Below are positions 1 to 30,012 of a DNA stretch of 64,000 bases, piece by piece; the stretch's first letter is position 1, and the number at the start of each line of letters is the position of its first letter. Below the pieces are notes generated by a model. That model was not told the origin of the DNA, did no database searches, and saw nothing but the letters and a program-made list of their open reading frames with translations. The stretch comes from Streptomyces leeuwenhoekii (lineage in GTDB: Bacteria; Actinomycetota; Actinomycetes; Streptomycetales; Streptomycetaceae). The stretch spans positions 5,160,001-5,224,000 of the forward strand of contig NZ_LN831790.1 of NCBI RefSeq assembly GCF_001013905.1. The letters run 5' to 3'. Both the position numbers and the translations under genes were made by a program.

Positions 1-3000
1 GCTTGGTGTCGAAGTTGGCGATGTTGTCGTCGACGTTGAGGATCAGGCAGGTGTCCTTGCCGCCGTTCTTGGGCCCGCGCAGGCCGCGGCCGATCATCTG
101 CTGGTACACGTTGGTGCTGTAGACCGGTCGTGCCACGACCACGACCCTCGTAGCGGGAGCGTCGAACCCCTGGGTGAGGACACCGTAGTTGGTGAGCACA
201 CGGATGCGGCCGTTTCTGAAGTTCTCGATCCGCGTCCTGCGGTCCTGCGTACTGGTCGTGGAGTCCACGGCGGCGGACGGTACGCCTCGGTCGTTGAGCA
301 TGGCCGCCAGGTACTTGGCATGGTCGACCGACGTGGCGAAGAGCAACGTCGGCCAGTCCGACGGCAGCGCGGCCACGGAGTCCACGATGCGCAGGCTGCG
401 CGCGTGGTCGTCGGCGAGACGTTGCTCGGCGGCACGGGACAGCATCGCCATGCGTTCCGCGTGCGTCTTCTCGTCCTGGTTCAGCGTGATCCGCCCGCCC
501 TCCAGGGTGCGGTGTTCGACCTGGGCGAGCATGCCCCACTCCTGCAGGTCGCGGTACGGGTCGCCCGACGGGAACACGCCCTCGTCGAGTCGCCGGTTGC
601 CGAAGCGGGTGATCAGCCGGCGGGTCTCGTCCTCGTTGGTGTTGCGGAACGGGGTGGCGGTCAGACCCAGCAGATGCCGACGGGTCTCGTACTGGGTCAG
701 GCCCAACAGGCCGAGGATCTCCGTGTACCGCTTGGAGATCGCGGTGTGCGCCTCGTCCACGATCACCAGGGCGGGTTCACGCAGCCACGCGTACTGGTCG
801 GCGCCCAGGCACCGCTCCAGTTTGGCGTCCGTGGCGACCACCAGATGGGGGTGATCGACGACGTTGCCGACCTCGTTGCTGCTCCACAGCCTGCTGATGG
901 TGAGCGGTCGCTCGGCCCCGACCTTGCTCCAGACGAACTTCCAGCTCTGCACGGCCTGCTCGCACAGCTCCTCGGTCTGCGCGATCCACAGCAGGGGACC
1001 CTCGAGATCGCCGACCCGCTTCACCCAGCGGATGACGGCCTCGGCGGTGACCCGTGTCTTGCCGGCGCCGGTGGGCAGGGACAACATGCCGCGTTGCGGG
1101 GCGAGCCGGTCGAGCAGGGTGGAGATGTTGCGGACCAGGTCCTCCTGGTAGTCGTGCAGCCTGGGGAAGTCCCGGGGACCCTCGACGGTCTCGAAGGGGG
1201 GCGGCGAGGGCGTCCTGGAGCCGGCGAACGTGACGGGAAGACGCAGGTCGGAGACGAACGCGATGGCGGCCGACGATCCGCCGTACGCCACCGGAGCGTT
1301 CGGGAAGCGCGCCTGGATGTCCCGCGCGTGCTGCTGGAGGACCCCGTCGCCGTGCGCGTTGAACGCCATCTGCGCGACGCGGCGGCCGGTCGGCTCCCTG
1401 CCGCCGTTCGCCTGGAGCTCGGCGTCCATCAGGCCCTCGGGAAGACCGGCCCTGAGTGCGTCCGCGCCGATCAGCAGCTCGAGTTTGGTCACGACGTCCT
1501 CGGCGTCGCGCACGGCCTTTTGCGCCGCCTTCAGGGCGCTGTCCCTGGCCATGCGGTCCTGGTGCTCCAGCACAGCGCGACAGCCGGCCGCGCCCAGTCC
1601 GAGGCCGAGCTCGCGGTCGATCAGCCGCAGCATGGGCTCCGGCTCCACGGGCACACGGATCTTGACCGTGCCGTCCTGGCGCACGGCGTCCAGGGGAGAG
1701 GCGTGCGTGCCGTTGGGCGTACGCGTGACCTCCTCCAGCTCGGCGCACCGCTGCACCGTGCTGTTCCGATTGGCGCTGTTCAGACGCTGCCGCAGGGCAG
1801 GGAACAGCTCGACGAGGGGTACCGGGTCGCCCTCGGGCACCTCGCGGGTCTCCCGGCTGATCACGTCGGCGTAGCGGAGCATGCCCCACTTCTCGACCAT
1901 CAGCTCGGCGTCCTCGGCGGTCGGCACGAGCAGGGCGGGGAGCTGTTCGGCACGCAGGGCCCGGTACTCGGCGGTACCGACGGCGAGGGTGATCTCGTCG
2001 TCGGGACGGGTGCCCCAGGTGTCGCCGATCCGGCAGCGGGTGAGGGAGTCCTCCGGGAAGTCGGCCCCGACCCGGGTCAGCATCACGTAGGTCGAACCGA
2101 CGAAGGCGTCGTCCTCGCTGTGGGACACCTTGTCCAACAGTGCGTCCCAGTGGTCGGTGGGGACCTCCTGAATGGTGCCGGGCAGCCGTAGTTTGCGGGC
2201 CTTCTCCGGGGAGATGTCGGCGACGGCCAGCACGTCGCGGTAGGCACCGAGCTGGGGGCCGACGGCCTCGGCCAGCGGCTTGAGGCCTTGGGAGGTGGCG
2301 ACCCTGCCGTACTTGCGCAGCATCCATCGGATCGGCGAGGCCACCGCCTGACGGGTGTTCGTCTGGGCGCCGAACTGGCGCGTCCAGTTGTCCACCACGG
2401 CCTCGTCCGGCAGGGCTTTCAGGAAGGCGGCGCGAGACTCCGGGGACAGCTCACGGAACAGGTGGAGAGGGCCGCCGATCGCGGCGCCCTCGACCTTCAT
2501 CCGGTTGAGCGCGGGTCGCGGGGCGTTGCTGTCCAGGTTGCGCAGGGAGGCCGCGTGGACGGCGGTGCGGTACTCCCGGAACCATTCCTCGTCCGCATGG
2601 GGCTGCACGCCGGCGGTCGGGCGGTCCCCCAGGCCGATCAGCGGGAAGAAGGACGTGTCGTCGGAGTGGAACGTCATGTCGACGGCGACGCTCGGGTCGC
2701 GCTCGGCGTCGACCACGGCACCGGGCAGCATGCAGTCCGCGACCGGCCGGAAGCGCTTGTCGGCCGTCCGTACCCGGAGGATGGTGCGAGGGTCGGGCAC
2801 CCGCTCCAGGACCTTGTGGGCCAGGCGACGGATGCCGGCCTGACGGAACAGCTCCCAGAAGCGCTTCCAGTCCGACTCCGTGTAGTGGTCGAACCCCTGG
2901 TCGAGGACGCTGACGAACCGCCCCTCGACGTCGGCCTCGCGGATGCCGAGCACGTTGAGCGCGTGCGCCAGCGACGGGTCCTGGGCGAGTTCGTCCACGA

Positions 3001-4729
3001 CGTACACCGTGGATTCGCGCAGCCCGTCCTGGTGCTCGGCCCGGCGGAACACCTTGCCGTGCACGGGGGCGACCAGCCCGTGTTCCTCGGTGAGCACGAC
3101 ACGGGCCTTGCGGGCCTCCTCGGCGAACGGCGAGTGCCTCTCCACCATGTCGGCCAGGATGCGGACGGCCACGGCCGACGCCTCGGCCGTGCCGCTCGCG
3201 ACCAAGGCCTCCAGCCATTCGCGGGCCCCGGCCCGTTCGTGTCCGGCGGCGGTGAGGATGTGCTCGACCTTGCCTGAGCGCATGACGTCGGCCTCGACGC
3301 TCGGGTGCAGCCAGTCCGAGGGACGACCGGGGCACTCGTGCCACATCCGCAGCCACCGGGTCAATTGCTTCAGGTCCCGGTCCAGCCGTGGGTGGACACG
3401 CAATCGCCGGGGGACGCGCAGGACACCGTCCTGGTCGGGCAGTGAGGGGCTCGTGGCGGCGCGAGCCCAGATCTCCCGGGTCAGGAACTCGTCGGCCCAG
3501 CTGATCGACTCCTTCACACGGCCGGGCAGCAGGGGCAGGTAGGCGGCCGGGTCCTCGGCCGGGGCCAGCGCGGGGAGGGAGTCGACGACCAGCTTCGCCG
3601 ACACCCTGATCATTTCCTGGTTGAAGGGGGAGGAGTCGAGCAGGTTCTGTCGATCCTCGTTGGTCTTCCACGCACCGTTGAGGATGCCGCTCAGCGACAT
3701 CTCGTACTTTGTGGGGAAGAAGGACCAGAACTTGCCGCGGCCGCGTGAGCGGGCCGACCTGACGTACAGGCCGCTCTCCGGGTCCTTCTCCAGCGTGGGG
3801 ACGGCCCAGGAGAGATCGAGCGTGACCCGGTCGTGCAGCTCTCCGGCGTCCGCGCGGGCCGCGGGGCCCGGCTCGTGCGTCGTGGTGAACACACGCCACC
3901 GCTCGGTGGTGACGGCCTTCCCGGTGCGCTCCTCGGTCACGGTGTGCAGGTCGCCGGACCGCTCGACGGTCAGCGTCCGGCGTGCCACGGGCCTGGGGCG
4001 GTGGTCCTCGAGCACGACCTTGGCGACGTGCGGTGAGAAGAGCTGGAACCCGACCGGGAACTCCTCGCGGGGCTCACCATGGTCCTTGCCGCGGTTGCCG
4101 TGCATGTCCCGCCCCAGCCGGTCGTCCGCCTTGGGCAGCAGCGGGAGCCGGACGACCGTGGTCGCCCAGGTCAGCAGCATGTCCAGTACGCGGTCCTTGG
4201 CCCGTTCGGCCTGCATGTCGAGTGGGCGGGCCATGCGCAGGACGGGTGCGTCGAACTCCGGGCCGTAGCGCTCCGTCACGCCGGGCACGGCCTTGATCTG
4301 CTCGTAGGACCAGGCGCGGTCGAATCCGAAACTTCCCGTGCGACTGAAGAATTCCGGCGCGTCGGTCACCACGAGGACCGACTTCACCCCGACTCCGAAC
4401 CTTCCGATCTGCCCCCCGCGCTTTTTCGACATACTCATGCGGAGAATGGTCTCCGCGCCTTCCGGGGTGACCGGGCTTCCCTCGTTGGCGCAGTACAGAT
4501 GGTTCTCCGTGAGGACTACGTGGATGCGTCCACCGGGTTCGTTCGCAATTTCGTCGGCCGCATTCTGCACGAGCTCGAAGAGCTGACGGTCACCGTATCC
4601 GCCTTGCGTGATGCGGCGTTCTCCGTTGGCATGTTCGGCGATGAGACCGGGGTCCACGGCATAAGTCTGCAAAACCCGGTCGGATTGTTCGAGGACGGTT
4701 TCGATCACCGCTGAGGGCGAGGACGGCAC
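1..4729 (-). CDS. Sacsin-like GHKL ATPase fused to DEAH superfamily-2 helicase (C-terminus off window)
   Basis: One uninterrupted minus-strand frame of at least 1576 codons runs from GTG 4729 off the left edge. AGGAG lies 10 nt before the GTG. Residues about 35-140 form a Bergerat-fold ATPase like the sacsin N-terminus: QGGYGDRQLFELVQNAADE is the N-box and GRFGVGVKS the G2 box. The next ~1000 residues have no motif I recognise. An SF2 helicase core follows: LPTGAGKT (Walker A, about 1218-1225), VIVDEAHT (motif II, about 1325), GLTATPFRNT (motif III) and QMIGRGLRG (motif VI, about 1550). The protein should couple ATP-driven clamping to DNA translocation, plausibly as the effector or sensor of the neighbouring methylation island. 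It is divergent from the HTH-ATPase gene. The antisense strand also stays open over long stretches, but the motifs are all in this frame. The domain call is firm; the biological role is inferred. Confidence 0.9.
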   Translation of the reverse strand, partial: MPSSPSAVIETVLEQSDRVLQTYAVDPGLIAEHANGERRITQGGYGDRQLFELVQNAADEIANEPGGRIHVVLTENHLYCANEGSPVTPEGAETILRMSMSKKRGGQIGRFGVGVKSVLVVTDAPEFFSRTGSFGFDRAWSYEQIKAVPGVTERYGPEFDAPVLRMARPLDMQAERAKDRVLDMLLTWATTVVRLPLLPKADDRLGRDMHGNRGKDHGEPREEFPVGFQLFSPHVAKVVLEDHRPRPVARRTLTVERSGDLHTVTEERTGKAVTTERWRVFTTTHEPGPAARADAGELHDRVTLDLSWAVPTLEKDPESGLYVRSARSRGRGKFWSFFPTKYEMSLSGILNGAWKTNEDRQNLLDSSPFNQEMIRVSAKLVVDSLPALAPAEDPAAYLPLLPGRVKESISWADEFLTREIWARAATSPSLPDQDGVLRVPRRLRVHPRLDRDLKQLTRWLRMWHECPGRPSDWLHPSVEADVMRSGKVEHILTAAGHERAGAREWLEALVASGTAEASAVAVRILADMVERHSPFAEEARKARVVLTEEHGLVAPVHGKVFRRAEHQDGLRESTVYVVDELAQDPSLAHALNVLGIREADVEGRFVSVLDQGFDHYTESDWKRFWELFRQAGIRRLAHKVLERVPDPRTILRVRTADKRFRPVADCMLPGAVVDAERDPSVAVDMTFHSDDTSFFPLIGLGDRPTAGVQPHADEEWFREYRTAVHAASLRNLDSNAPRPALNRMKVEGAAIGGPLHLFRELSPESRAAFLKALPDEAVVDNWTRQFGAQTNTRQAVASPIRWMLRKYGRVATSQGLKPLAEAVGPQLGAYRDVLAVADISPEKARKLRLPGTIQEVPTDHWDALLDKVSHSEDDAFVGSTYVMLTRVGADFPEDSLTRCRIGDTWGTRPDDEITLAVGTAEYRALRAEQLPALLVPTAEDAELMVEKWGMLRYADVISRETREVPEGDPVPLVELFPALRQRLNSANRNSTVQRCAELEEVTRTPNGTHASPLDAVRQDGTVKIRVPVEPEPMLRLIDRELGLGLGAAGCRAVLEHQDRMARDSALKAAQKAVRDAEDVVTKLELLIGADALRAGLPEGLMDAELQANGGREPTGRRVAQMAFNAHGDGVLQQHARDIQARFPNAPVAYGGSSAAIAFVSDLRLPVTFAGSRTPSPPPFETVEGPRDFPRLHDYQEDLVRNISTLLDRLAPQRGMLSLPTGAGKTRVTAEAVIRWVKRVGDLEGPLLWIAQTEELCEQAVQSWKFVWSKVGAERPLTISRLWSSNEVGNVVDHPHLVVATDAKLERCLGADQYAWLREPALVIVDEAHTAISKRYTEILGLLGLTQYETRRHLLGLTATPFRNTNEDETRRLITRFGNRRLDEGVFPSGDPYRDLQEWGMLAQVEHRTLEGGRITLNQDEKTHAERMAMLSRAAEQRLADDHARSLRIVDSVAALPSDWPTLLFATSVDHAKYLAAMLNDRGVPSAAVDSTTSTQDRRTRIENFRNGRIRVLTNYGVLTQGFDAPATRVVVVARPVYSTNVYQQMIGRGLRGPKNGGKDTCLILNVDDNIANFDTK

Positions 4730-4883
4730 GATTGCTGCGCTCCTGGGTGTCGGGTGGCTGGAAGTGGGACGGGCCAGCCCGCCGGCTGTGCGAGCCGGCC
4801 CGTCGTTCATCGCGCGCTGGAGGTCGAAGCGTCTCGCCACATGGACGAGTACGCACAGGTCATACGGATGGAGCCCCTTGACG

Positions 4884-5384
4884 TCAGGTGACGGGAGGGC
4901 TCTCGTCCGGCAGCGTCTGCACCGCCTTGGCCCGCTCAGGAAAACCAGCGAGGAAGTCATCCTCGGACATGTCGTGCCGATTCAGAACATCCGCTACTTC
5001 GGCCTTGCTCGCCGCAAACCGAATATCCAATTCAGTCGCGCCGCGCTCCCGCTGAGAGAGCAGCAACGGGCAACAGTCGTCCTCGTTCAACGAATTCCCA
5101 CCCCTGCCGAAAAAAGTGCTCTGCTTCGCGTCAGGGGTGTAATCGGGCCACGCCCCGTGAAGCGAATGTTTCATGTTGCGGGATTTTGCTCCCGCCGATG
5201 ACGGTAGCGGCTGGATCCCCCCGACCGCCAGGTCTTTCAAAAAACGTTTCCCCATGCGGTCGTTGGCCGGATGGGGGCATACTCCTGCCCGGGTCGCACG
5301 GCCCCGGACGGCCCGGTTCGCGAGCGAGTCGGCTTTTCCAACATGACGAATGTAGCGGGCATCCGAGGCTTGGGCAAGGAGCAA
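4884..5384 (-). CDS. Hypothetical small protein or decayed gene beside the island
   Basis: A 166-codon minus-strand frame starting at TTG 5384, with a purine-rich AAGGAAAG about 6 nt upstream. The frame stays open further upstream without a better start, and an ATG at 5174 would give 96 residues. The C-terminal half (ELDIRFAASKAEVADVLNRH and on) is charged and helix-like as in a real protein. Third-position GC is clearly lower than in the neighbouring genes, which fits foreign or decaying DNA. No family is recognised. It lies on the same strand as the helicase-ATPase gene and 155 bp before it, so it could be a small leading gene of that unit or the remnant of a longer gene. Coding status is uncertain. 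Confidence 0.35.
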   Translation of the reverse strand: MLLAQASDARYIRHVGKADSLANRAVRGRATRAGVCPHPANDRMGKRFLKDLAVGGIQPLPSSAGAKSRNMKHSLHGAWPDYTPDAKQSTFFGRGGNSLNEDDCCPLLLSQRERGATELDIRFAASKAEVADVLNRHDMSEDDFLAGFPERAKAVQTLPDESPPVT

Positions 5385-5514
5385 CTCCCTTTCCTTCGTG
5401 GAGAGTTGCAGCCTCCGTTTGTGTGGAACGAACGCAAGTGAATGAAAGGGGCATATGGGATCTTCCGCTCTGGTCGACTGAGTCTGCGGCGGACCCCTGC
5501 CCAGTTAACTGTTG

Positions 5515-5538
5515 GTTGACGTGATCGCGATCGTCAAC
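5515..5538. promoter_or_regulatory. Inverted-repeat operator candidate for the HTH-ATPase gene
   Basis: GTTGACG-N10-CGTCAAC, a perfect 7-bp inverted repeat whose spacer contains the smaller palindrome ATCGCGAT (5524-5531). It lies 40 bp before the preferred GTG start at 5578 and includes a TTGACG that could serve as a -35 element. Its position, just upstream of a gene whose product begins with a helix-turn-helix, suggests autoregulation. Binding is inferred. Confidence 0.5.
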
Positions 5539-5577
5539 TTAGCCTTCTCGGACGACCCGAGGAAGAGCAGGTGGCGT

Positions 5578-7722
5578 GTGGAGACAGGTGAGGAGTTCGG
5601 GCCGTGGCTGGCCCGGCAGCTCAAGCTCGCGGGGAAGACGCAGGCAGAACTGGCCAAGGAGCTCGGGCTGACCCGAGCTGCCGTCTCCGCGTGGATCGCC
5701 GGACGGTCGACTCCGCGCCCGACCGTGATGACGGAGATCGCCAAGGCGTTGGGTACGGACGTCGGTACGGTGCACACCCGCACCACCGACACCCGAGCCG
5801 GCCTCCCCGTCACCTGGTACCACCGCCCCGGCTATCCCGACGGCGGTCGTGACCTCGGCAATGCCGCGGCGTTCGCCTTCGATGCCGACGTCCAGGTCCT
5901 CGCGCGCGAGACGTGTCAGAACAGTCTCGACGAGCGGCTGGTGGAGAACGGCCGTCCGGTGCGTGTCCGCTACACCCTGCACGAGCTGACGGGTGAGCAC
6001 CTGGACGCCTTCCGCGAGGCGATCCTCTGGAACGACCTCTTCCCGCACTACTCCGCCGTCTCGGAGCTGGCCGGCAATCAGAAGGTCGGCCGGGTCGTCG
6101 ACGCCGGTGTGCGCGACATGTACGAGAAGGGCCGCCTGGTCCTGCTGCGCGTCGACGACTACAACGCCTCCGGGCTCACCGGCGACGACTACGCGGACGG
6201 CAAGTTCGCCGCCGTCGTCCGGCGCCAGCTCGAGAGCCTGAAATCCGGCCCGGCCGCCGGTGGTTCATACGGCTTGGGCAAAGCGACGCTGTGGGCGACC
6301 AGCGCTCTCGGCCTCGTGCTCATCAACTCCACCCTGTCCGTGCCGCACGAGGGACGTACCGAGCGACGGGTGATCGGCCGTCTCGAACTGCCCTGGCGGG
6401 AGGTCGACGGACGCGCCTATGCGGGACCCGCCTGGTTCGGGCGTCCCGACCCCGACACACCGGGCGCGGAGGTCGCCCGTTCCTGGTGGGCGGACGAGGA
6501 GACCGTGGCCCGCCTGCATCTGAGCCGGGAGGGTGACGAGCCCGGTACGTCCTTTCTCATCGTGGGCGCACATGACGTGGCCAGCCTTGAAGGGGATGCG
6601 TACGACCAGGACGGGAGGCTTCGCGACGAGGAGGGGCCCGAGGACACGCGCGACATCGAGAGGATGCACGGTCGTCTGGTCGAGGCGCTGGGCCGCGACT
6701 TCTGGGCGGCCATGATCGGTGGGGGTGGCCGACTCCCGTTGTTGGAAGCCTCGGTCCGCGCTCTGCGCAACGGCGAGGAGGTCGTGCCCGAGACGAAGGT
6801 GGACCCGTCCGTCGAGCAGCCGTCCCGCACCCGCGCCCTGCGGGCCCACTACGAGGGCACCACGGTGGACCGGCTCACCGAGTCCGGTCAGGTGGCCTCG
6901 AGGTACGTTCCGTTGAAACTCCCGCTGACCGGTGGCGCCCGCGGGACGCTCGGCACCCATCAGGCGGTCCTCCTGGTCACCGAGGCAGCAGGCGACAAGG
7001 ACACTCCCAAGAACCAGGTGCACTCGCTGCGCGGCAACCGTATGACGGTCAGGAAGGCCACGGTTCCGAACCTGCCGCTCGGCACCAACCCCTTCCAGGC
7101 CGTCCTCCTGGTCGGCGAGGCCGCCGGCGAGTCGGCCCCCTTCGCGAAGGAGGCCGAAGAGTTCCTGCGTGCGGCGGAACCGCCCGAGCACGACCGGTGG
7201 GGGCAGACGGAGGAGCTGACCCTGCGCTGGTCCCCTTCCGCCTATCGACGGATCAACAATTTGACGACCGAAGTCAACAGCGCGGTCAGGGAACTCGTCG
7301 TCCGTCCGAAGCGCGGCGGAGGCGGAGGCGGCGAGGCTCTCCGCAAGGCGCTGACCGTCAAGAGCCGACCCAAGGCCAAGGTGCCCACCGGTCCGGTGGT
7401 GCCGGCGCTGGACGGGCTCGAGGCGACGATCGGCGACCAGGGGGAGTGGCTGATCGCGGCGGAGGTGAGCATCCCGCGCGGTGACGAGATCGTCCCGATG
7501 GTGCCGGTCGCCCAGTTGGACGTCCATTCCGGGGGACGCCCGCGACTCGACTGGGCCGAACTCGTCGCAGTGGAGGGCTGCGAGGTGGAGAACGGAACCC
7601 TGCGTTTCCCGCCCGGGACACGCCGCGCGAAGTTCCGGGGAGCCACCGACGTCTCCAGCCACCCGGTGAGGACCGCGCTCACCCGCCTCGTCCTCGAACT
7701 GCGTGCCGGCAAGGGGGCGTGA
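5578..7722 (+). CDS. XRE-type HTH fused to GHKL ATPase
   Basis: About 714 residues from GTG 5578, which has GGAAGAG 10 nt upstream. An in-frame TTG at 5512 would add 22 residues but has no ribosome site and would place the inverted repeat inside the gene. Residues ~5-60 are an XRE-like helix-turn-helix (KTQAELAKELGLTRAAVSAW). A GHKL ATPase follows: N-box RETCQNSLDE, a D-x-N-x-x-GL-like G1 box (RVDDYNASGL) and G2 box GGSYGLGKATLW. The ~400-residue C-terminal part is not recognised and contains a Gly-rich linker near residue 580. The gene heads a tight plus-strand operon (3-nt gap, then a 4-nt overlap). It probably senses or controls the island while using ATP-driven dimerisation. It is the second of three GHKL ATPases here. 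Confidence 0.8.
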   Translation: METGEEFGPWLARQLKLAGKTQAELAKELGLTRAAVSAWIAGRSTPRPTVMTEIAKALGTDVGTVHTRTTDTRAGLPVTWYHRPGYPDGGRDLGNAAAFAFDADVQVLARETCQNSLDERLVENGRPVRVRYTLHELTGEHLDAFREAILWNDLFPHYSAVSELAGNQKVGRVVDAGVRDMYEKGRLVLLRVDDYNASGLTGDDYADGKFAAVVRRQLESLKSGPAAGGSYGLGKATLWATSALGLVLINSTLSVPHEGRTERRVIGRLELPWREVDGRAYAGPAWFGRPDPDTPGAEVARSWWADEETVARLHLSREGDEPGTSFLIVGAHDVASLEGDAYDQDGRLRDEEGPEDTRDIERMHGRLVEALGRDFWAAMIGGGGRLPLLEASVRALRNGEEVVPETKVDPSVEQPSRTRALRAHYEGTTVDRLTESGQVASRYVPLKLPLTGGARGTLGTHQAVLLVTEAAGDKDTPKNQVHSLRGNRMTVRKATVPNLPLGTNPFQAVLLVGEAAGESAPFAKEAEEFLRAAEPPEHDRWGQTEELTLRWSPSAYRRINNLTTEVNSAVRELVVRPKRGGGGGGEALRKALTVKSRPKAKVPTGPVVPALDGLEATIGDQGEWLIAAEVSIPRGDEIVPMVPVAQLDVHSGGRPRLDWAELVAVEGCEVENGTLRFPPGTRRAKFRGATDVSSHPVRTALTRLVLELRAGKGA

Positions 7723-7725
7723 CGC

Positions 7726-8721
7726 GTGAAGATCTATCCGTACAAGCGACTCACCCGCCCGATCACGCTCAGAGTGACGTCGGTCTCCCTCAAGCTCTCC
7801 GACGGGACCCGTGACCCACTGGACACCAGCGCCTACTCGACCCAGGAGCAGACCGTCGCCCTCGGTGTCGCGGGCCACACGGACTGGGTGACCGCCACGA
7901 TCGGTCTCTCGGCCACACTGCCCCCCGGTGCCGACGGCCCGGACGCGACCTGGTCCGATCTGAGTGTGCTCGCCGTGTTGACCGACGGTGAGACCAACGT
8001 CCGTACCTCTGCGGCTCTCATACGGGACGCGGAGGGCAACCGAGACTGGTCGGGCACCGTGGAGGTGCGCCGCGACGACCACCTGGGCCGAGCGTCCCTC
8101 GCCGTCTACGCCGTCGGGACGGTCGACGGAGTGGCGGGCCGGTCGATCGCCGAGACCGACCGGAGCTGGGTCGTCGACACCGTCTCCGACGAGCCGGTCA
8201 GGGGTCTGCGCCTGGATGTCCAGAAGGCGTCGTTCAGCAAGAGCTCCAGGGAATGGCTCCGGGCCTACGCCGACGCTCCTTGGTTGGTGGACACCACGGC
8301 ACGGGTTCCCACGGTGTTCGTCAACACCGACATCGACGGGATCGTCGGGCTGTTGGACAGCAACGGCTCCGGTGTGGACAGCAAGGTGCGTGACCTCCTC
8401 GTCGCCCAGATGGCCACGGACGTGTGGACGGCGGTGTTCCACGGTGCCATCGGCGACCTGGAGGTGGAACCCGGCGGCAATCCCGTCTTCCCGACCGACT
8501 GGCAGGGCGAGGTGCTGAGGGAGATGCTCCCGGACGTCGTCCCCGGCGTACACGTAGAGGAGGCTCTGCGCCAGGTCCACCGCCGACGCACCGGTGAGGC
8601 GGGTTGGGGCGAGCTTCAGACACGCATCCATTACGCGGCGATCCGACGAGCGGAGGCCGCCAGGGCGGTGGGCTTCGCCATCCGCGCTCTGGAACGGACG
8701 AACAGGGAGAGCGAGACGTGA
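7726..8721 (+). CDS. Island protein of unknown function
   Basis: 331 residues from GTG 7726, three bases after the stop of the HTH-ATPase gene, so very likely co-translated. The N-terminal ~150 residues are beta-rich and contain repeated short hydrophobic strands. The C-terminal ~130 residues look helical, with WRELQTR-like amphipathic stretches. No signal peptide, membrane segment or catalytic motif is seen. The stop overlaps the next start by four bases. Close coupling to an HTH-ATPase and a third unknown gene suggests the three products form one complex. I do not recognise the family. Confidence 0.75.
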   Translation: MKIYPYKRLTRPITLRVTSVSLKLSDGTRDPLDTSAYSTQEQTVALGVAGHTDWVTATIGLSATLPPGADGPDATWSDLSVLAVLTDGETNVRTSAALIRDAEGNRDWSGTVEVRRDDHLGRASLAVYAVGTVDGVAGRSIAETDRSWVVDTVSDEPVRGLRLDVQKASFSKSSREWLRAYADAPWLVDTTARVPTVFVNTDIDGIVGLLDSNGSGVDSKVRDLLVAQMATDVWTAVFHGAIGDLEVEPGGNPVFPTDWQGEVLREMLPDVVPGVHVEEALRQVHRRRTGEAGWGELQTRIHYAAIRRAEAARAVGFAIRALERTNRESET

Positions 8722-9581
8722 TCACCCAGCCCCACCACGTGCCGGAGCGTCTCGCGCTGCTTCCCAGCTCGGCCGCGGACCCCTTCCTCACCGAGGGCCT
8801 GCTCAGGGGCGAGGAGGTCCACAGCGGCATCGACCTCGCCAAGGTCGTCGAGCCTCTGCCCGAGGACGACGCCAGGTGGTGGGTCGAGCCGGTCCGCAGC
8901 CTGGTGGAGGACGCCATGTTCGCCTTCGACAAGGAGCGTACGAAGGCCGACGCCTGGCTCGCGCCTCGGCTCCACGCGACGCTGCGTCTGACGCGGCGGG
9001 AGGCGGCGGACAAGCGGCTGTGGAACCACCTGGCGCTGGCCGTCGCTCCCGACTATGTCGTGTGGCGGCATTTCTCGGAGCCGACTCTACGCGTTGCCGC
9101 CGAGCGCTTTCAGGGTCCCGCGTATCGGCAGTGCTTCTCCCGCCTGTGGTGGGCGGCCGAGCTCTTCCGGAACGGGCCGGACTACGAACCAGTCGTCATG
9201 GCTTGTGGCAACCAGGATTTGATCCACAGCGTTCTCCGAATGGACTTCATCGACCACCGCCCCACGGCCCAGGCCTTGGTTTGCCTGCTGAAGGACGGAA
9301 AGATCACAACTGGGCGGGAGGTCAACGGCTTGAGCGTCGCCATCACAGCGGCCGGTGCGACCGTGATCTACGACGCCCTTGCACCCGACGAGCCCAGGGA
9401 CCCCGCCCGCCTGCGCGACTGGATCGAGGAGGCGCAGTCGGCGCCACCGGTCTCACGCCACCAGCTCCCGGAGGGACCCGACGAGGAGCCCGTCCCCGAG
9501 GAGTCCGTGGTCGCCCTCACCGACTACTTCACGGAGCTGTTCGAAACCGCTCCGGTCAGGGGTCGAAAGAGCGAGGACTGA
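8718..9581 (+). CDS. Island protein resembling the DUF6339 family
   Basis: 287 residues from GTG 8718, overlapping the previous stop as GTGA. The centre (LWNHLALAVAPDYVVWRHF followed by RLWWAAELFRNG) has the aromatic pattern I associate with DUF6339 proteins, which sit in similar actinobacterial islands; that assignment is from memory and moderate. No enzymatic motif is visible. The last ~40 residues are acidic and proline-rich. It ends 15 bp from the convergent stop of the methyltransferase, so the two operons meet tail to tail and must share any terminator in or beyond that gap. Confidence 0.7.
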   Translation: MITQPHHVPERLALLPSSAADPFLTEGLLRGEEVHSGIDLAKVVEPLPEDDARWWVEPVRSLVEDAMFAFDKERTKADAWLAPRLHATLRLTRREAADKRLWNHLALAVAPDYVVWRHFSEPTLRVAAERFQGPAYRQCFSRLWWAAELFRNGPDYEPVVMACGNQDLIHSVLRMDFIDHRPTAQALVCLLKDGKITTGREVNGLSVAITAAGATVIYDALAPDEPRDPARLRDWIEEAQSAPPVSRHQLPEGPDEEPVPEESVVALTDYFTELFETAPVRGRKSED

Positions 9582-9596
9582 CACGGCGACGGCGAG

Positions 9597-10958
9597 CTAC
9601 TTGCTCTTACGCGGGCGCGGTGCGGACCGAGGAGGTGTCTGCTCGTCGGGACGTGGGCAGCGGACGGTGCAGTCGTCCGCCGCCCCACAGCCGTGGCTCC
9701 GCAGTTTGGCCCGCTGCTCCTCCGTGGCCGGCGCCCACGGCTCCCGCAGCGCATCCGGGTCGGGCGCGGGAAGGCCGAGCGCCGCGCTCAGGAGGTGCGC
9801 CCCGAACAAGGGCGGCACCGCGTTGCCCACCTGCTGGGCCTTCGCCGTGCCCGACCACGGGTAATCCGGCGGGAAGCTCTGCAACATCCCCGCCTCGTTC
9901 ATGTTGAACCGCGGCCCCTCACGGACGACGCCGGTGTGGTCGTCGAGGTGCTCGAAGACCACGAAGCGGGAGATGCGACCGGTGACGGTGGCGGCCGGCT
10001 GCTGGTCGGTCCGCACGCCGCGTCGTTTCGGGTCCCCGGAGCTGCCGTAGTTGGACCGGACCAGGAAGGGCCTCTTGCGACCTCGGTGTGTGCCTACCTC
10101 TGCGGCGAGAGCATCGCGCATCGACAGCCAGTGCTTCGGCTCGTTCTTCTTCACGGGCTGGGACGGGGGTTCCTCGGTGCATGCCTCGTCAAGGGTCGCC
10201 TGGACCTGATCCGAACCCGCGCTGTTCCTGCGGTTCCACTGCCTGGCCTCGTAGGCGCGGTGAGTCGCCTCGGGCAGCTCGGGCTCGCCGAGTCCTGTAC
10301 GACGGGCGATCAGCACGGCGCGGGACCGGGTCTGCGGCACTCCGTAGGTCTCGGTGGCGAGGACATCGACGACGACCTTGTACTTGGTGCCGTCGGGAAG
10401 GCCGGTCTCCTCCAGCACCTTGGCGTAGTGTCGCCAGACCTCCACTACCGCGGGGACCTGCTCCAGCACGATGACGTCGTACGGCCGGTACCCACGATTG
10501 GGGCTCCTGGTCGCCTGGATCGCGTACCGGAGAGGTTCGAGAACCAGCGCGGTACGGGGATCGCCACCGCGCGCCTCCAGCGACTTCAGCTTCTTGTCGA
10601 TGTCCTCGTCGGAGGCCCCCGCCGCCAGATCGTTGATCAACGTCTTGACGTCCTCGAGCGCCTTGCGCCCCGCACCGCGCCCCGCCACCGAGTACGTCTG
10701 ACACGGCGGACCGCCGGCAAGCACGTTGATCTCCGGCGGGAGCGACTCGAAGGAGTCCCTGCGGACCTCGCTCACGTCGGCGTGAAGGGTCTCCAGCCCT
10801 GCCGCGTACCGCGTGAGACAGGCGCTCCTGTCCCACTCGATGCCGAGACTCGGGACGTCCAGCACGCGCCCGGCCACGTCCAAGCCACCGGGTCCGGCGA
10901 AGAGATCCAGGACAAAAGGCTTGTCGAGGATGGACTGGTGGGGCGGCGTGCTGGTCAT
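9597..10958 (-). CDS. DNA (cytosine-5) methyltransferase, catalytic motifs present
   Basis: 453 residues from ATG 10958, 11 bp after the stop of the upstream methyltransferase homologue. C5-methyltransferase motifs appear in order: I (VLDLFAGPGGLD, AdoMet binding), IV (GGPPCQTYS, with the nucleophilic Cys), VI (LEQVP), VIII (QTRSRAVLIAR) and X (QQVGNAVPP). Motif VI reads EQV where most family members have ENV, a conservative change next to the catalytic Glu. The region between VIII and IX is the target-recognition segment, and its sequence specificity cannot be read from here. The C-terminus is basic and Cys-containing. It should modify host DNA so that the island's nucleases ignore it. It is the last gene of the five-gene minus-strand operon. 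Confidence 0.9.
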   Translation of the reverse strand: MTSTPPHQSILDKPFVLDLFAGPGGLDVAGRVLDVPSLGIEWDRSACLTRYAAGLETLHADVSEVRRDSFESLPPEINVLAGGPPCQTYSVAGRGAGRKALEDVKTLINDLAAGASDEDIDKKLKSLEARGGDPRTALVLEPLRYAIQATRSPNRGYRPYDVIVLEQVPAVVEVWRHYAKVLEETGLPDGTKYKVVVDVLATETYGVPQTRSRAVLIARRTGLGEPELPEATHRAYEARQWNRRNSAGSDQVQATLDEACTEEPPSQPVKKNEPKHWLSMRDALAAEVGTHRGRKRPFLVRSNYGSSGDPKRRGVRTDQQPAATVTGRISRFVVFEHLDDHTGVVREGPRFNMNEAGMLQSFPPDYPWSGTAKAQQVGNAVPPLFGAHLLSAALGLPAPDPDALREPWAPATEEQRAKLRSHGCGAADDCTVRCPRPDEQTPPRSAPRPRKSK

Positions 10959-10969
10959 GTGGTGGAAGT

Positions 10970-11965
10970 CTAGCCGGCAGCGGACAGCGCCGGCTCCCCA
11001 CACAGGGCTTCGGCGACGGAGCGACCCAGGGCCCGACCGACGGGCGGCGGGGTCGCGTGCCCGATCTGGCGATATCGGGCGGTCTTCCGGCCTGCCACCT
11101 CCCACGACGAGGGGAAGCCCTGCAACAGGGCCGCCTGCTCCACTGTGATCTTGACCATGCCGCCCCGGCCGAGGTCAGGATCCCAGACGAAGTCGGGCCC
11201 GGGGACCTCGTCGCCCACCGTATGGGCGTCGACACCCATGGTCGCCCACTTCCGCTTCGCCCCGGTCGGCCCCAGGTCGGCGCCGCCCCGGTTCTTGGAG
11301 CCCCCGACCAGGGTCGGAGCCGGTTGATCGGCTTGGGCGGCCCATCGCGCGGCGTCGGGCCAACCGCGTGCCGCCATGGACGGGCCCAGGGCGTCACCGA
11401 CGGTCACCGGCTCCCGCACGGTCGGAGTCGGCACTCGGAACTCCTGAGCTCGCCCTCGTTCGACGGCCACCAGGACGCCCTGTTTGCGGTTCTGCGGCAC
11501 TCCGAAGTCGACGGCGTTCACCACGCACCAACTGAAGTCGTACCCCAGATGGACCAGTTCGGCCCGGGCGAAGTCACGGAACCGCTGGTACGCGTCCGCG
11601 TGCGCGAGCCCGGGGACGTTCTCGATGAGCACCGCGCGTGGTCGGATCGCGTGGACGAGATAGATGGTGGCTTCCAACAGCCGCTCCTCGACCTCCGATT
11701 CCACGCGCCCGACGGTCGCGCTCGACTTCACCCGGGGCAGCCCTGCCGCCAAAAGATCCACGTCGTAACTCACGGGATGGTCGGTCGGGTCGAAGTCCAG
11801 CAGATCGGTGTGCAGCACGTTCCATCGCGGGCGATTCATCCGCAGTGTCGTGACCGCGAGTTCGTCGTGATCCAGCAGCAGGCGAGGCTCGAAGCCCGCC
11901 TGCTCCAACCCGAGGGCCAACCCACCCGCACCGGAACACACGTCCACGAAGGTCAGTGGCTTCAC
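10970..11965 (-). CDS. C5-methyltransferase homologue lacking the catalytic Pro-Cys motif
   Basis: 331 residues from GTG 11965, which overlaps the Vsr stop as GTGA and has GGGAG upstream. Motif I (FVDVCSGAGG), motif VI (LIENVPG), motif VIII (QNRKQGVLVA) and motif X (QIGHATPPPVG) are clear. Motif IV, expected as GGPPCQ, reads AAGLPRVKSSATVG: the nucleophilic Cys is absent, checked on the nucleotides near 11710-11770. Cysteines elsewhere (CSGAGG, SWCVV) are not in the catalytic position. The AdoMet and DNA-binding scaffold is kept, so it may be a non-catalytic partner of the adjacent intact enzyme, or a reader of target sites. A different chemistry cannot be excluded. The gene is intact, with no frameshift. 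Confidence 0.85.
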   Translation of the reverse strand: MKPLTFVDVCSGAGGLALGLEQAGFEPRLLLDHDELAVTTLRMNRPRWNVLHTDLLDFDPTDHPVSYDVDLLAAGLPRVKSSATVGRVESEVEERLLEATIYLVHAIRPRAVLIENVPGLAHADAYQRFRDFARAELVHLGYDFSWCVVNAVDFGVPQNRKQGVLVAVERGRAQEFRVPTPTVREPVTVGDALGPSMAARGWPDAARWAAQADQPAPTLVGGSKNRGGADLGPTGAKRKWATMGVDAHTVGDEVPGPDFVWDPDLGRGGMVKITVEQAALLQGFPSSWEVAGRKTARYRQIGHATPPPVGRALGRSVAEALCGEPALSAAG

Positions 11966-12405
11966 TTCGTTCTCCCTCTGGCCAGTTCCGCCCTGCGCCG
12001 TTCCACGGTGGCCGCCACCCGTACGGCCACGTCCTCGGGAGCTTCGTGCTCCCAGAAACGCAGTACCGTCCACCCCTCGGCGACCAGATGCTCCGTCGTC
12101 TCCCGGTCACGGGCCATGTTCCGGTCGAGCTTGTTGCGCCACCATTCCGCGTTGGCCTTCGGCTGCGTCGCGTGCCGGGGGCAGCCGTGCCAGAAGCAGC
12201 CGTCGATGAGGACGGCGATCTTCAGTCGAGGGAACGCCACGTCCATGCGCCTGCGCGGCATGCCCGGCACGGGGTACTCCACGTTGTAGCGCATCCCGGC
12301 GGCGTGCAGGAGCCGTCGCACGGCCAGCTCGACCCTCGTGTCCTTGCTCGGCTGCCGGCTCATGCGGGCCGAGACGTCGGGGGAGGAGGGCGTCATCCTG
12401 TTCAC
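11962..12405 (-). CDS. vsr: Vsr-like very-short-patch endonuclease
   Basis: 147 residues, start ATG 12405 (an ATG at 12396 is also possible), 12 bp after the Z1 stop. It matches Vsr over most of its length: KDTRVELAVRRLLHAAGMRY, then MDVAFPRLKIAVLIDGCFWHGC with the catalytic Asp and His, the zinc-site Cys/His set (CFWHGCPRH), and the family's closing GWTVLRFWEHE. Classical Vsr nicks at T:G mismatches left by deamination of methylcytosine. In an operon with two cytosine methyltransferase homologues, an SF2 helicase-like protein and a MORC ATPase, it could also be the restriction nuclease. The fold call is firm; the choice between repair and restriction is open. Confidence 0.92.
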   Translation of the reverse strand: MNRMTPSSPDVSARMSRQPSKDTRVELAVRRLLHAAGMRYNVEYPVPGMPRRRMDVAFPRLKIAVLIDGCFWHGCPRHATQPKANAEWWRNKLDRNMARDRETTEHLVAEGWTVLRFWEHEAPEDVAVRVAATVERRRAELARGRTK

Positions 12406-12417
12406 TGTCGTCGAGCC

Positions 12418-15369
12418 TCACGTACGCGTGTCGTAACGGTCGATGATCACCCGGTCCTCCCGGGTCGAATCGACCGCGCGGAACCGAACCAACGGACGGT
12501 CGCCCCGCGCCGTCGACGGCGGCGCCACAAAGGCGAAGGCCATCACGAGGTCCCGTGGATCGACCGAACCGTCGGACAGGATCCGGGGATCGGACTCCAC
12601 CACGGGATAGAGCACCAGCGCTCCCCGACGTGGACGGACGTGCTGCTCGACAGTGGCGTTCCCGGTCAGCTCCGCGGCCCCGGCCAGGCGCTTCGCCGCT
12701 GCGACGTGCTTCGGATCACGGATCGCGCCGAACAGCGGGCCGCGGCGTCGCTGTCGGCGGGCGAGGGAGAAGGGACCGTGTCCCAGGATGCGCGCCTCGT
12801 TCCGACGGGCGGACGTCTGCATCGGAGCGATCACGAACCAGTCGTCGACCGTGCCCGGCGCCTTCCCGGCGTCCAGCAGGAACTCCAGGTGCGGCGAGAA
12901 CTGCTGCGGGGCGGACCAGCGCAGTTCGCACAGCACGGTGAGGAGGTCCTGGTGCGAGACCGTTCCCACGCGCGCGTCGTACTGCGGACCGCCGTCCACA
13001 CCGAGGGAGACGGGAGCGTCGGACAGGGCACCGAGGACCGGAGCCCAGCACTCCGTGTTGTGGTGCAGGGCCTCCGGGTCCTCGGGGTAGGCCGTCGGCT
13101 CCTCCCAGACACCCGGTGACCGCACCTCCACCAGCTCCGCGTTGAACATCTTGTTCCGGGCCGACGGCTTCACCCACGGCAGATGTTGGGCGACCAGCGG
13201 CGGGATCTGGGCGGGGGTGACCTGCGGGCGACCGTCCACCAGGGGTGCGTAGCGGGCCAGTTCGGCGCGGAAGAGTTCCTCGTCGCGGCAGATCGCCTCG
13301 AAGGCCTCGTACAGGTCGACCGTCTTGGCGGCGCGGCCCTTGCCGAGCTGCTCCTCGCGGCCGATGTAGAGCCGGACCAGATCCCGGTATCCGGGCCGGA
13401 AACCGAACCAGCGGCCCATCTGCATCAGGGTGTCCGCCTGTTGCGTCGTACGGCGGTAGTACGAGACCGTCAAGCCCTCGACGGTGAAGCCCCGGGACAG
13501 TTTGGTGCCGCCCACGAGGATCTTCCAGACGTTCGGGGTGCGGTCGAAGTCCAGATCGGGCTGGGCGTAGTCGCGCTCGCTCTCACCGTTGACGACGATG
13601 ACCGGCCCGCCGCCCCTGTTGATGAGGCGGCGGGCTTCATGGACGTACGGCTTGAGGTCTGCGTACGCCGCGGGAGTGGGCATGGTGCCGGCGGCGTGGA
13701 CGCGGAAGTCCTCGGCGAAGAGCGACGCCAGGCGCGCATGGCCCTCGGGGCCGGTGTACGCGGCGTTGTGCCACATGGTCTCGATGCGCGAGGCGAGCGC
13801 GGCGTGCTCCGCCATGCGGACCGATTCGTGCACCAGCATGGTGTGGTGCCGGAACGGGCCGGCGGGGACACCGTGATCGGCGCGGTAGAGCTTCAGCGCG
13901 CCCGCGAGGACGAAGGCGTCCAGGGCTTCCTGGAGGCGGTCGCCGGTGGAGTCGTGGATGCCGCGGACATGCTTGGTCTCGGCCTCGCCCACCTCGCCCT
14001 CGGCGGTGTCCAGGTCGTGGAAGTCCTGGACGCCCATGTAACCGTCGGGACGAGGCAGGGAGATCAGGAAGTCACGGGGGAAGATGTCCTCCTCGTCCCC
14101 CGGATCGATGAAGACGTTGGCGAACGGGGTCGCGGTGTACCCCACGTACTGGGCGCGGGGCAGGAGCTTGAGGAGCTTGCTGATCTGACCGTTGATCGCG
14201 GAGCGGGTGACCCTGCCGGCCTCCCACTTCTTCGGGTCCGTGGTGTTCACCGAGGCCTGGTCCGACTCGTCGTCGATGATTAGGGCGGGAATCTCGCCGA
14301 GGATCGGGCCTATCTTCTTGAGGTCCTTGACCAGCTTCTCCAGCACGGACTTGTTCTTCTTCACGACCATGACGCGGGCACGCGCCGAGTGGAGGTTCGC
14401 CGGGTGGTAGAGGGGTCGGGTACGGTCCGGCTTCTCGAACTCCAGCGCGCTGATGCCGCGTTCCAGCGCCATGTAGTCACGGTCGCGGGAGGTCAGGCGC
14501 TCGATGTCGAAGGCGCCGAGCGTGGAGGGCCGAGCACCGAAGGACACGAACTTCTCGGGCCAGTCCTCGTCGTCCTGGTAGTCGATGTCGACCAGGGCGT
14601 CCGGGTCGTTCGGGTCGGCCGCGCCCAGGATGTTCTCCCGGCCGATCAGCTCCATGTCGAGGCGACGCTGGGTCTGCCCGCGCAGCAGGTTGAGCGTGCC
14701 GCCGAGGACGATCACCAGTCGGTAGCCGGCGTCGATCGCCTTCGCGGTCACGCCGGTGAAGTTGGCGGTCTTCCCGGACTGCACATAGCCGACGACCAGT
14801 CCGCGTGCGCCGTGAGGGTCTTCACGGGTGGGGTCGGCGAGCCGTTCCACGACCGCGTGGGCGGCCTCGTCGAGGCCGGAGACCGCCGCGTCGCTCCAGC
14901 CCTTGCGGCGCAGCAGCCGCTCGTACGAGGCCCAGTAGAAGGAGCGGTTCGCCGCCAGTTCCCGGGTGTACCAGGGCCGGAACTCCCGGCTGATGGTGAC
15001 CGGGCCCGGTTCCGTGTGCACCGGGACGACAGCGTCGAACGCCTTGCGAAGGTCCTCGCCGAAGGCGAGCTTGTCGTAGATCTCGGCGCGGCGCTCCGGG
15101 GTGCGCGGAGCGGTGGTCGACCAGGAGGGGGCCTGCTCGAAGTCCCAGGCGGTGAGCTTGCGACGCCAGAGCGCGAGCAACTCGTCCCCGGGGTCCGCGG
15201 CAAGGACACGGTCGCGGAAACGGGGCCCGTCCATGTCCGTCGGTTCGTCGGCGCCCGCGAGGAGGGAGGCCAGCTCGGCGAAGGGCTTGGGGCCACGCCG
15301 GCTCATCGCGTCGAGAACCTCGCCGTGGAGGTCGGTGAGACGGTCGGCAGTGCGGGAGTTCTCGATCAC
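12418..15369 (-). CDS. Z1-domain superfamily-2 helicase-like protein
   Basis: 983 residues from GTG 15369. The frame is open to 15510, but that start would overlap the ATPase gene by 92 bp. After a ~200-residue N-terminal region come GYVQSGKTAN (Walker A), ALIIDDESDQAS (motif II, DDES rather than DEAH), QYVGYTATPFANVF (motif III), then the Z1 domain, and KLSRGFTVEGL with TLMQMGRWFGFR (motifs V-VI). A ~350-residue C-terminal part follows. Z1 proteins are DNA-dependent ATPases found with MORC ATPases, methyltransferases and RE-fold nucleases in predicted restriction systems. It is second in the operon, 49 bp after the ATPase gene. Confidence 0.9.
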   Translation of the reverse strand: MIENSRTADRLTDLHGEVLDAMSRRGPKPFAELASLLAGADEPTDMDGPRFRDRVLAADPGDELLALWRRKLTAWDFEQAPSWSTTAPRTPERRAEIYDKLAFGEDLRKAFDAVVPVHTEPGPVTISREFRPWYTRELAANRSFYWASYERLLRRKGWSDAAVSGLDEAAHAVVERLADPTREDPHGARGLVVGYVQSGKTANFTGVTAKAIDAGYRLVIVLGGTLNLLRGQTQRRLDMELIGRENILGAADPNDPDALVDIDYQDDEDWPEKFVSFGARPSTLGAFDIERLTSRDRDYMALERGISALEFEKPDRTRPLYHPANLHSARARVMVVKKNKSVLEKLVKDLKKIGPILGEIPALIIDDESDQASVNTTDPKKWEAGRVTRSAINGQISKLLKLLPRAQYVGYTATPFANVFIDPGDEEDIFPRDFLISLPRPDGYMGVQDFHDLDTAEGEVGEAETKHVRGIHDSTGDRLQEALDAFVLAGALKLYRADHGVPAGPFRHHTMLVHESVRMAEHAALASRIETMWHNAAYTGPEGHARLASLFAEDFRVHAAGTMPTPAAYADLKPYVHEARRLINRGGGPVIVVNGESERDYAQPDLDFDRTPNVWKILVGGTKLSRGFTVEGLTVSYYRRTTQQADTLMQMGRWFGFRPGYRDLVRLYIGREEQLGKGRAAKTVDLYEAFEAICRDEELFRAELARYAPLVDGRPQVTPAQIPPLVAQHLPWVKPSARNKMFNAELVEVRSPGVWEEPTAYPEDPEALHHNTECWAPVLGALSDAPVSLGVDGGPQYDARVGTVSHQDLLTVLCELRWSAPQQFSPHLEFLLDAGKAPGTVDDWFVIAPMQTSARRNEARILGHGPFSLARRQRRRGPLFGAIRDPKHVAAAKRLAGAAELTGNATVEQHVRPRRGALVLYPVVESDPRILSDGSVDPRDLVMAFAFVAPPSTARGDRPLVRFRAVDSTREDRVIIDRYDTRT

Positions 15370-15418
15370 GGCGGCAGGGAGGCTCTTTCTGGCGTACGGG
15401 CAGGTGCGGGGTGCGGGG

Positions 15419-16999
15419 CTATGCCTCGGCGCGGGCGAGTTCGGCCCGGACCGCGGTGACGAGCACGCTGTTCCACAAGGCGATCCGGTCGGTCTGGTTG
15501 GCCCAGACACGCTCCTTCTGGAAGATCTCGTTCAACATCAGGTAGAGGAGGCTCTTGAGGACCGGTGCATCGTTGGAACCACCGCGTCGGGTGCCGTTGA
15601 AGGCGTGCCGGTAGTCCTTGTTGAGGACGACTCTGCGTTCCTTGTGGTCGATCGTGAAGAGCAGGTCGGAGGGGTCGGTGCCGGCCGGCACGTCGAGCCG
15701 GGCCCAGATGAAGGTGATGGGCTCCTCGCCCTCCAACTGCGGGAGTTCGTCCCGCAGGGTCCGCTTCAGCTTCGGGTCGAGACCCTTGCCGGGCGGGATG
15801 ACGGCCTTGCGCCTGACCTCCGTCCGACGCCGGGCGGCTTCGCGATAGGTGGCCTCCGCGTCCTGCACGTACGCGGCGAAGGAGTGACCCGTCTCCGGAT
15901 CCCTCGCGTTCTCCAGCCCCCGCGCGAAGGCCGGGGTGACCTGCACTCCGTCCTTCTTGACGGTCAGCGCGAACACGTCGTTGGGCTCGGGCGGCAGATC
16001 GACGGCGATGCGGGCGAGGGCGAGGTGCCCCTCCGGACTCCGGGTGTCGTTCCAGCCACCGGCCTGGACGAGGCGGTCGTTGCGGTAGAGGTAGAAGCCC
16101 TGACGTTCCACGAGCGATCCGATGCCGCGGTACGCGACCAGCGGTGACTTGGGCGGCCATATGTGCGCGACGAGAGGGACCTCGCCGACGCCCTCGACGG
16201 GGGCGAGATACGTGCGGGGGTAGCCGGCCCGGCCCGGGATCCGGTAGCCGAACGGGTCGATGGGCTCCACGCCCCGGTGGTCCAGCTCCTCCCGGGTATG
16301 GACGTCCTCGACGACGATGTCGATGTGGAAGCCGTCGCGTGCGAGGAAGCGGTGGAGATGGAGGCCCAAGTGTGTCTCCAGCCGTTCGATCGCGTCGTTG
16401 AGATAGCGGTCGGTCTGGCCGTCCGTGATCGTCTCGAACGCGCGGACCTGATCCCAGCGCACGATCGTGCCGTGCCAGCCGATGATGCCGTCGTAGCGGT
16501 CGACCAGGTCCTGGCAGTACGTCGAGTCCACGATGTCGCAGGTGAAGTCGGCCTGAGCGCGGGCGGTGAGCCAGCGGCGACCGGCCGAGGGGCTGCGCTT
16601 GGTCCTGCTGATCACGGTGAGGGCGTCGGCGTGCGACAGCGAGGCGGCCTTCAGGCCGGCGCCGAAGTGCCCGAGGGCGCCGGGGGCGTACTCTTCGCGA
16701 CCGCCGACGGTCATCGCCGTGTCCAGTTCCGCTTCGTCCATGCCGTGGCCGTCGTCGATGACGAGCAGGCCGACGAGACGGTCCCGGCCGCCGCGCTCGC
16801 CGGTGTCCCGCAGGAAGCTCACGACGATGTTGCGGGCCCCGGCGTCGATGGAGTTGTCGATCAGGTCGGCGATGGCCGCCTCGAAGCTGTAGCCCTGGTG
16901 CGCGAGCGAGTCGAACGACCTGGCCGCCGGGGGGAGCCGCTTGCTCCCGCTGGTGGGTACGTCGAACTGCCAGTCGGAGGACGGCTGGTAGGGCGGCAT
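15419..16999 (-). CDS. MORC/Hsp90-type GHKL ATPase
   Basis: 526 residues from ATG 16999, chosen because GAGGA lies 9 nt upstream; an ATG at 17047 has no such site. The N-box AIADLIDNSIDAGARNI (about 42-58), G1 box LLVIDDGHGMD and G2 box GHFGAGLKAASLS are textbook GHKL, closest to MutL/MORC. A transducer-like domain and a C-terminal helical region follow. Such ATPases dimerise on ATP and clamp DNA; prokaryotic MORC relatives occur with Z1 helicases and restriction endonucleases. First gene of a five-gene operon (ATPase, Z1, Vsr, two methyltransferase homologues). Confidence 0.92.
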   Translation of the reverse strand: MPPYQPSSDWQFDVPTSGSKRLPPAARSFDSLAHQGYSFEAAIADLIDNSIDAGARNIVVSFLRDTGERGGRDRLVGLLVIDDGHGMDEAELDTAMTVGGREEYAPGALGHFGAGLKAASLSHADALTVISRTKRSPSAGRRWLTARAQADFTCDIVDSTYCQDLVDRYDGIIGWHGTIVRWDQVRAFETITDGQTDRYLNDAIERLETHLGLHLHRFLARDGFHIDIVVEDVHTREELDHRGVEPIDPFGYRIPGRAGYPRTYLAPVEGVGEVPLVAHIWPPKSPLVAYRGIGSLVERQGFYLYRNDRLVQAGGWNDTRSPEGHLALARIAVDLPPEPNDVFALTVKKDGVQVTPAFARGLENARDPETGHSFAAYVQDAEATYREAARRRTEVRRKAVIPPGKGLDPKLKRTLRDELPQLEGEEPITFIWARLDVPAGTDPSDLLFTIDHKERRVVLNKDYRHAFNGTRRGGSNDAPVLKSLLYLMLNEIFQKERVWANQTDRIALWNSVLVTAVRAELARAEA

Positions 17000-17059
17000 G
17001 CAGGTGTTCCTCGCGGGCCGGGACATGCCCGGGAAGTGCGCGGGCACGCCAGTTCAGCT

Positions 17060-17177: not shown

Positions 17178-18197
17178 TCAGACGTTCGGCATTCCGTGGC
17201 ACTCTCCGTACGTCTGGCCCGACCCGCACCAGCACCCCGCCCCCCGCTCCGGTGGCCAGGCCGCCGCCCGGCCGCGGGCTGCCAGGACCGTCGCGTACTG
17301 CGGCAGCAGGGTCGTGTCGGTCGGGGAGGTGCCCTCCGAGGCGGCGAACGCTTCGTAGGAGGGGACCGTGCCCGTGACGACGCCCAGGTTGGGGGTGCCG
17401 GAGGAGGCGAGTTCGCGCAGGGCGGTCTCTATGGTCGCCAGGTGTTCCTCGTGGGAGGGGTACTCCGCGGACAGCTCCGGGTAGGCGGCCACCAGCTCGG
17501 CCAGTTCGTCCGCCGGCCAGTGGAGCATCGCGACCGGGAAGGGGCGGGAGAGGGCCTCGCGGTAGGCGCCCAGTTCGGCGCGGAGGCGGGAGATCTCCGC
17601 CGCCAGTTCCGCCGGGTTGTCCGAGCCGAGGGACCAGACGCGCTTGGGGTCGTGGAGCTCGTCCAGGGAGACGGGCATCGAGTGGAGGGTGTCGGCCAGG
17701 GTGTCCCACGTGTCGTGGGGTGCGCCCAGCATGCGGCGGACGCGGTGGCGGCCGATGAGGAGGGGGCGGGTGGCGCGCGGGGGTTCCGGTACGTCGGTGA
17801 GGAGGAGGCGGGCGCCCTCGGTGAACGTCTCGTGGGCCGCCTCCAGCTCGTCATGGGCCTCCAGCGCCTCCGCGGCGATCACCCAGGGGGCCGGGTCGCG
17901 GGGGGAGGCCGTGCGGACGCCCTCGATGATGGCGCGGGCCTCCGCCTCGTGGCCGTACTCCCAGAGGTTCGACGCCTTCAGGGCGCGTACCAGGGCGGGG
18001 TTGTCCAGGGCGGCGGGTTCGGCCAGCAGGCGGTCGTAGAGCCTGGTCGCGGCGGGGCGGTCGCCGGCCAGCTCCAGGTGGGCCGCGGCCCGCAGCAGCA
18101 GGGCCTCGGCGTCCTCCGGATACAGGCCGGCGGTCCGCTCCAGGCGCGCCGCTTCGGCGGTGTGGTCGACGTTGTCGGCAGGCGTGTCGGGGCGCAT
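17178..18197 (-). CDS. SEC-C metal-binding domain protein
   Basis: 339 residues, ATG 18197. The first ~200 residues are helical repeats resembling TPR (EDAEALLLRAAAHLELAGD and similar). The C-terminus ends in CWCGSGQTYGECHG, the zinc-binding SEC-C motif CxCGSx6CH, also found at the end of SecA. Role unknown; the family is often linked to protein or nucleic-acid binding. It is the first core gene beyond the defence island, and the 180-bp gap before it is a plausible island boundary. Confidence 0.85.
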   Translation of the reverse strand: MRPDTPADNVDHTAEAARLERTAGLYPEDAEALLLRAAAHLELAGDRPAATRLYDRLLAEPAALDNPALVRALKASNLWEYGHEAEARAIIEGVRTASPRDPAPWVIAAEALEAHDELEAAHETFTEGARLLLTDVPEPPRATRPLLIGRHRVRRMLGAPHDTWDTLADTLHSMPVSLDELHDPKRVWSLGSDNPAELAAEISRLRAELGAYREALSRPFPVAMLHWPADELAELVAAYPELSAEYPSHEEHLATIETALRELASSGTPNLGVVTGTVPSYEAFAASEGTSPTDTTLLPQYATVLAARGRAAAWPPERGAGCWCGSGQTYGECHGMPNV

Positions 18198-30006: not shown

Positions 30007-30012
30007 CGTCGG

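Follow-up and report, generated by a model that had tools for sequence, protein, structure and literature searches.

DISARM combines DrmA and DrmB with a DNA methyltransferase and acts broadly against phages; its classes are defined by a DrmD or DrmE gene. The structural paper on DrmAB reports lower ATPase activity on 5-methylcytosine (5mC) DNA and describes DrmC as dispensable and often missing (PMC9142583). Two further sets of systems invite comparison: the operons of MORC, a third type of superfamily 2 (SF2) helicase, Dcm and Vsr set out by Iyer et al. 2008 (PMC2292703), and ARMADA, BRIGADE and TALON, DISARM-related systems with a helicase-plus-methyltransferase logic (PMC12458937). Here we describe a gene island in Streptomyces leeuwenhoekii (genome 8.12 Mb, three contigs), analysed in a 64,000-nucleotide window of contig NZ_LN831790.1 (C3:5160001-5224000) together with sequence left of the window edge, taken from the same contig. 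It recurs across genomes as a modular relative of DISARM, and from its sequence we put the probability that it is a methylation-guided DISARM variant at roughly 0.55. The reported 5mC effect on DrmAB and dispensability of DrmC agree with a methylation-guided DISARM without DrmC.

Gene content and relation to DISARM

The nine genes listed in an earlier note on this window were all found, arranged as it described. A plus-strand operon (5578-9581) and a minus-strand operon (17047-9597) face each other across 15 bp, and a giant gene diverges at the left. The claim of two helicases proved too low. The giant gene crosses the window edge, its stop lying 40 bp outside (C3:5159961), and is followed by genes for a UvrD-like helicase, DrmA and DrmB (L002) in overlapping or abutting frames; because of this continuation the island extends to about 24.1 kb, with at least four helicases.

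The resemblance to DISARM is carried by DrmA (NF038325, 1000.7 bits, cut-off 950; PADLOC DrmA, E 1e-244) and by a DUF1998/MZB-type DrmB (NF038324, 476 bits, cut-off 240; PADLOC DrmB, E 8e-71). A C5-methyltransferase is linked as well, as a possible counterpart of DrmMI or DrmMII, and 5mC-sensitive DNA targeting is presumed. The island contains no DrmC or phospholipase D-type gene, the genome's seven PLDc_2 matches all falling outside C3:5152958-5177047, and neither DrmD nor DrmE was among the matches listed in the PADLOC scans, in which some tables gave the best 25 and no direct search was made. Instead of the usual DISARM company it holds a GHKL-ResIII giant, UvrD, three genes here called M33A, M33B and M33C, a Dcm2 without the catalytic cysteine, and Vsr. 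With ARMADA, BRIGADE and TALON the island shares the pairing of helicase and methyltransferase; the words "GHKL" and "Streptomyces" are absent from the main text of that paper (PMC12458937). Of the MZA proteins, MzaC scored 258.5 bits, below the cut-off of 1500, and MzaA, MzaD and MzaE were not among the matches listed for the window proteins (two tables, best 25).

Full-length M33A occurs in 55 of 246 sampled genomes of the genus, about a fifth. It is present with 41/42 giants and 53/56 Dcm2 genes. Across their two divergent operons, giant and M33A correlate at rho 0.90, and gene order and orientation are unchanged in loci with an M33B that shares 38-90% identity with the window protein. Named protein matches and loci are almost entirely from Streptomyces; the giant and M33ABC also occur in another family (L220-L222), with no match there to the SEC-C gene that adjoins the window's island.

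The gene block probably protects against viruses. One could suppose instead a chromatin or replication-maintenance locus, akin to eukaryotic MORC or to MutL-type repair, and GHKL/MORC and UvrD parts do occur in repair. Yet the patchy presence of the island (55/246), its GC content below that of its flanks (0.694 vs 0.733 and 0.746), the exchangeability of its modules and the presence of the DISARM proteins DrmA and DrmB make such a role highly improbable.

A methylase and a cysteine-less homologue

Conservation was assessed in 80 relatives, the named loci; counts of 81 refer to orthologues from these loci plus the window. Dcm1 (9597..10958, minus strand) was recognised from family scans and motif counts as a C5-methyltransferase with a PPCQ motif IV, present in 80/80 named loci and in 49/51 sequences of another set, the remaining two rows having no readable motif. 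GVPQ.R is kept in 76/80 and GNA.PP in 79/80, and motif VI reads LEQV, in place of the usual LENV, in 80/80. Dcm1 is presumed to be an active methylase; among PADLOC models MTase_II matches best (E 6e-75) and DrmMII more weakly (E 5e-18). In L130, L132, L152 and L158, Dcm1 appears by eye to be extended behind motif IV by a long insertion of charged residues, which may be a coiled coil.

Both C5-methyltransferase homologues announced in the earlier note are present, but one lacks the catalytic cysteine. In Dcm2 (10970..11965, minus strand), identified by the same scans and counts, the motif IV cysteine is replaced by arginine (GLPRVKSSA), a change found in 120/120 relatives among the matches listed, in 51/52, and in 71/73 sequences taken as Dcm2. 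Dcm2 is predicted to be catalytically inactive. DNMT3A/DNMT3L offers a model for a different arrangement, in which a Dcm1-Dcm2 heterodimer methylates and Dcm2 is an allosteric or recognition subunit, not a reader for the effectors. The two genes are adjacent in constant order, their rho of 0.65 is the highest of either with any tested gene, and a cysteine-less homologue recurs outside the usual gene order beside another PPCQ methylase (L220, L222), all of which would suit a heterodimer. Dcm1, however, keeps its main motifs at the frequencies above, occurs without a Dcm2 match in seven named loci, and correlates almost as closely with the giant (rho 0.61); we regard a subunit role as possible, if on balance doubtful. 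Three more C5-methylase loci lie elsewhere in the genome (G000:C3:4070099, C3:2945143 and C1:23123), so that a methylome obtained without deletions would be confounded.

The M33 operon and its regulation

M33A (5578..7722, plus strand; 714 aa with an inferred start) joins a helix-turn-helix (HTH) domain (HTH_3, E 2e-12) to a GHKL ATPase with N-box in 81/81 orthologues, G1 in 80/81 and G2 in 78/81. Conservation in the intergenic alignment favours GTG 5578 as its start over the listed TTG 5512, which lies just 5' of a conserved palindrome. M33B (7726..8721, plus; 331 aa) has no Pfam or PADLOC match in the family scans and is predicted to form an immunoglobulin-like beta-sandwich with a helical C-terminal domain (predicted local distance difference test score, pLDDT, 86; predicted template modelling score, pTM, 0.57). 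M33C (8718..9581, plus; 287 aa), whose start overlaps the M33B stop, belongs to DUF6339 (E 2e-10) and is predicted to be nearly all helical (pLDDT 85, pTM 0.87); of two proteins previously called unknown, then, M33B remains without a Pfam match and the other has a family. Structure searches with M33B and M33C gave no informative match for either.

M33A (E 2e-21) and M33C (E 3e-8) match PDC-M33A and PDC-M33C of the PADLOC candidate PDC-M33, in that order and with one gene between; these matches rest on E-values, with no curated cut-off, and are partial (about 141/627 and 188/247 profile positions), and M33B matches no model. A literature search found no paper naming PDC-M33.

Alignment of 63 giant-M33A intergenic regions revealed the inverted repeat GTTGAC-N12-GTCAAC (5515..5538, no strand assigned) just 5' of M33A, with conserved arms and a variable spacer. 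It is the single window match allowing at most one mismatch, with no second copy before other operons in the window; 100 shuffles averaged 0.05 matches, and 4/100 had one or more. The looser TTGAC-N9..17-GTCAA, a pattern derived from these same loci, lies near M33A in 50/80 of them and three times elsewhere in 1.64 Mb. The palindrome is probably an operator or promoter element, and its position fits an autoregulatory site for the M33A HTH domain. The 30 loci without the looser pattern near M33A comprise 17 sigma-fused loci and 13 others. In those 17 (L163:6372-10001 and 16 further named loci) a complete sigma-70 factor is fused N-terminal to the HTH and GHKL of the M33A homologue. Exactly these loci, 17/17, carry a NERD-helicase and an alternative DrmA; no sigma match was obtained in the remaining 63 named loci, of which 62 are giant-type. 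Across the 80, M33A form and effector operon change together.

Giant protein, MORC and Vsr

Three GHKL ATPase genes had been proposed, and the GHKL boxes are indeed kept in orthologues of M33A, the giant and MORC. The giant (1..4708, minus strand, running 40 bp past the window) combines, by family scans, a sacsin/Tiamat-like GHKL region with ResIII/DEAD and Helicase_C, and keeps its N-box in 62/63 orthologues and G2 and Walker A in 63/63 (named loci plus window). A conservation boundary in the aligned intergenic regions places its start at GTG 4708, giving about 1582 aa, with ATG 4810 and ATG 4960 as alternatives. Its N-terminal region matches TmtA models (best E 4e-42), presumably those of Tiamat, but over about 400/1538 profile positions (579/1782 in a second model), and the giant also carries a helicase. 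At G195:C1:4472295-4476831 the giant gene is split into two separate pieces, apparently broken.

MORC (15419..17047, minus; alternative start ATG about 16999), an optional module, matches MzaB (E 2e-28) and HATPase_c_3 (E 2e-21) and keeps N-box, G1 and G2 in 18/18 orthologues (named loci plus window). A further gene of this operon occupies 12418..15369 (minus). As in the Iyer et al. operons, Dcm and Vsr are present; the MORC S5 motif GhXhhpXXRhl given in that study is readable by eye in a window protein as GFYLYRNDRLV, and the SFII helicase motif DThhQXuRhFG is readable in window proteins (PMC2292703). For the additional restriction endonuclease-fold gene of those operons, Vsr is the sole candidate identified here, fold searches having covered M33B and M33C.

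The Vsr endonuclease homologue (11962..12405, minus; PF03852, 53.8 bits, cut-off 27; 1cw0, E 7e-11) keeps its GCFWH motif in 73/74. The odds lie slightly with Vsr being a mere repair companion of Dcm1, correcting T:G mismatches with no part in restriction. Its poor correlation with Dcm1 (0.24) speaks against this, as do the family scans, which recognised no other nuclease domain in the island proteins, and the account of Iyer et al., in which nucleases of the Vsr family figure as candidate nucleases of MORC/paraMORC operons (PMC2292703).

Surroundings

The region past DrmB, with alpha/beta hydrolase, DUF2267, HSP20, TetR and amidase genes, is ordinary chromosome. The SEC-C gene (17178..17987, minus) is within reach in 46/80 named loci and is a repeated neighbour of differing defence arrangements, as in an exchange hotspot. 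Three minus-strand tRNA-Lys (CTT) genes within about 14 kb (window 30011-30086, 33483-33557 and 44150-44224) are possible integration sites or duplications.

Proposed function and significance

What the analysis shows is the gene content, the module inheritance, the cysteine loss, the palindrome and the sigma fusion. The gene content and arrangement described in the earlier note are confirmed, and its interpretation is partly supported. In a methylation-guided DISARM variant, Dcm1 would mark DNA, Dcm2 would read or assist, M33A would act as a switch, the helicases would attack and Vsr would repair. More tentatively, and at less than even odds, the island may represent a DISARM class widespread in actinobacteria. 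There a live and a dead cytosine methylase, the latter a SAM-binding (S-adenosylmethionine), non-methylating reader of target sites, would separate self from non-self, and a GHKL ATPase fused to an HTH or a complete sigma-70 factor would, on sensing unmarked DNA, have the matched helicase operon transcribed or activated.

The locus bears on two points of DISARM biology, the discrimination of self from non-self and the missing nuclease, and it places the PADLOC candidate PDC-M33 in a DISARM context. What it offers is a natural, recurrent DISARM variant in which a conserved methylase homologue without its catalytic cysteine is the candidate reader, the switch is of GHKL/HTH or GHKL/sigma type, and the effectors can be exchanged.
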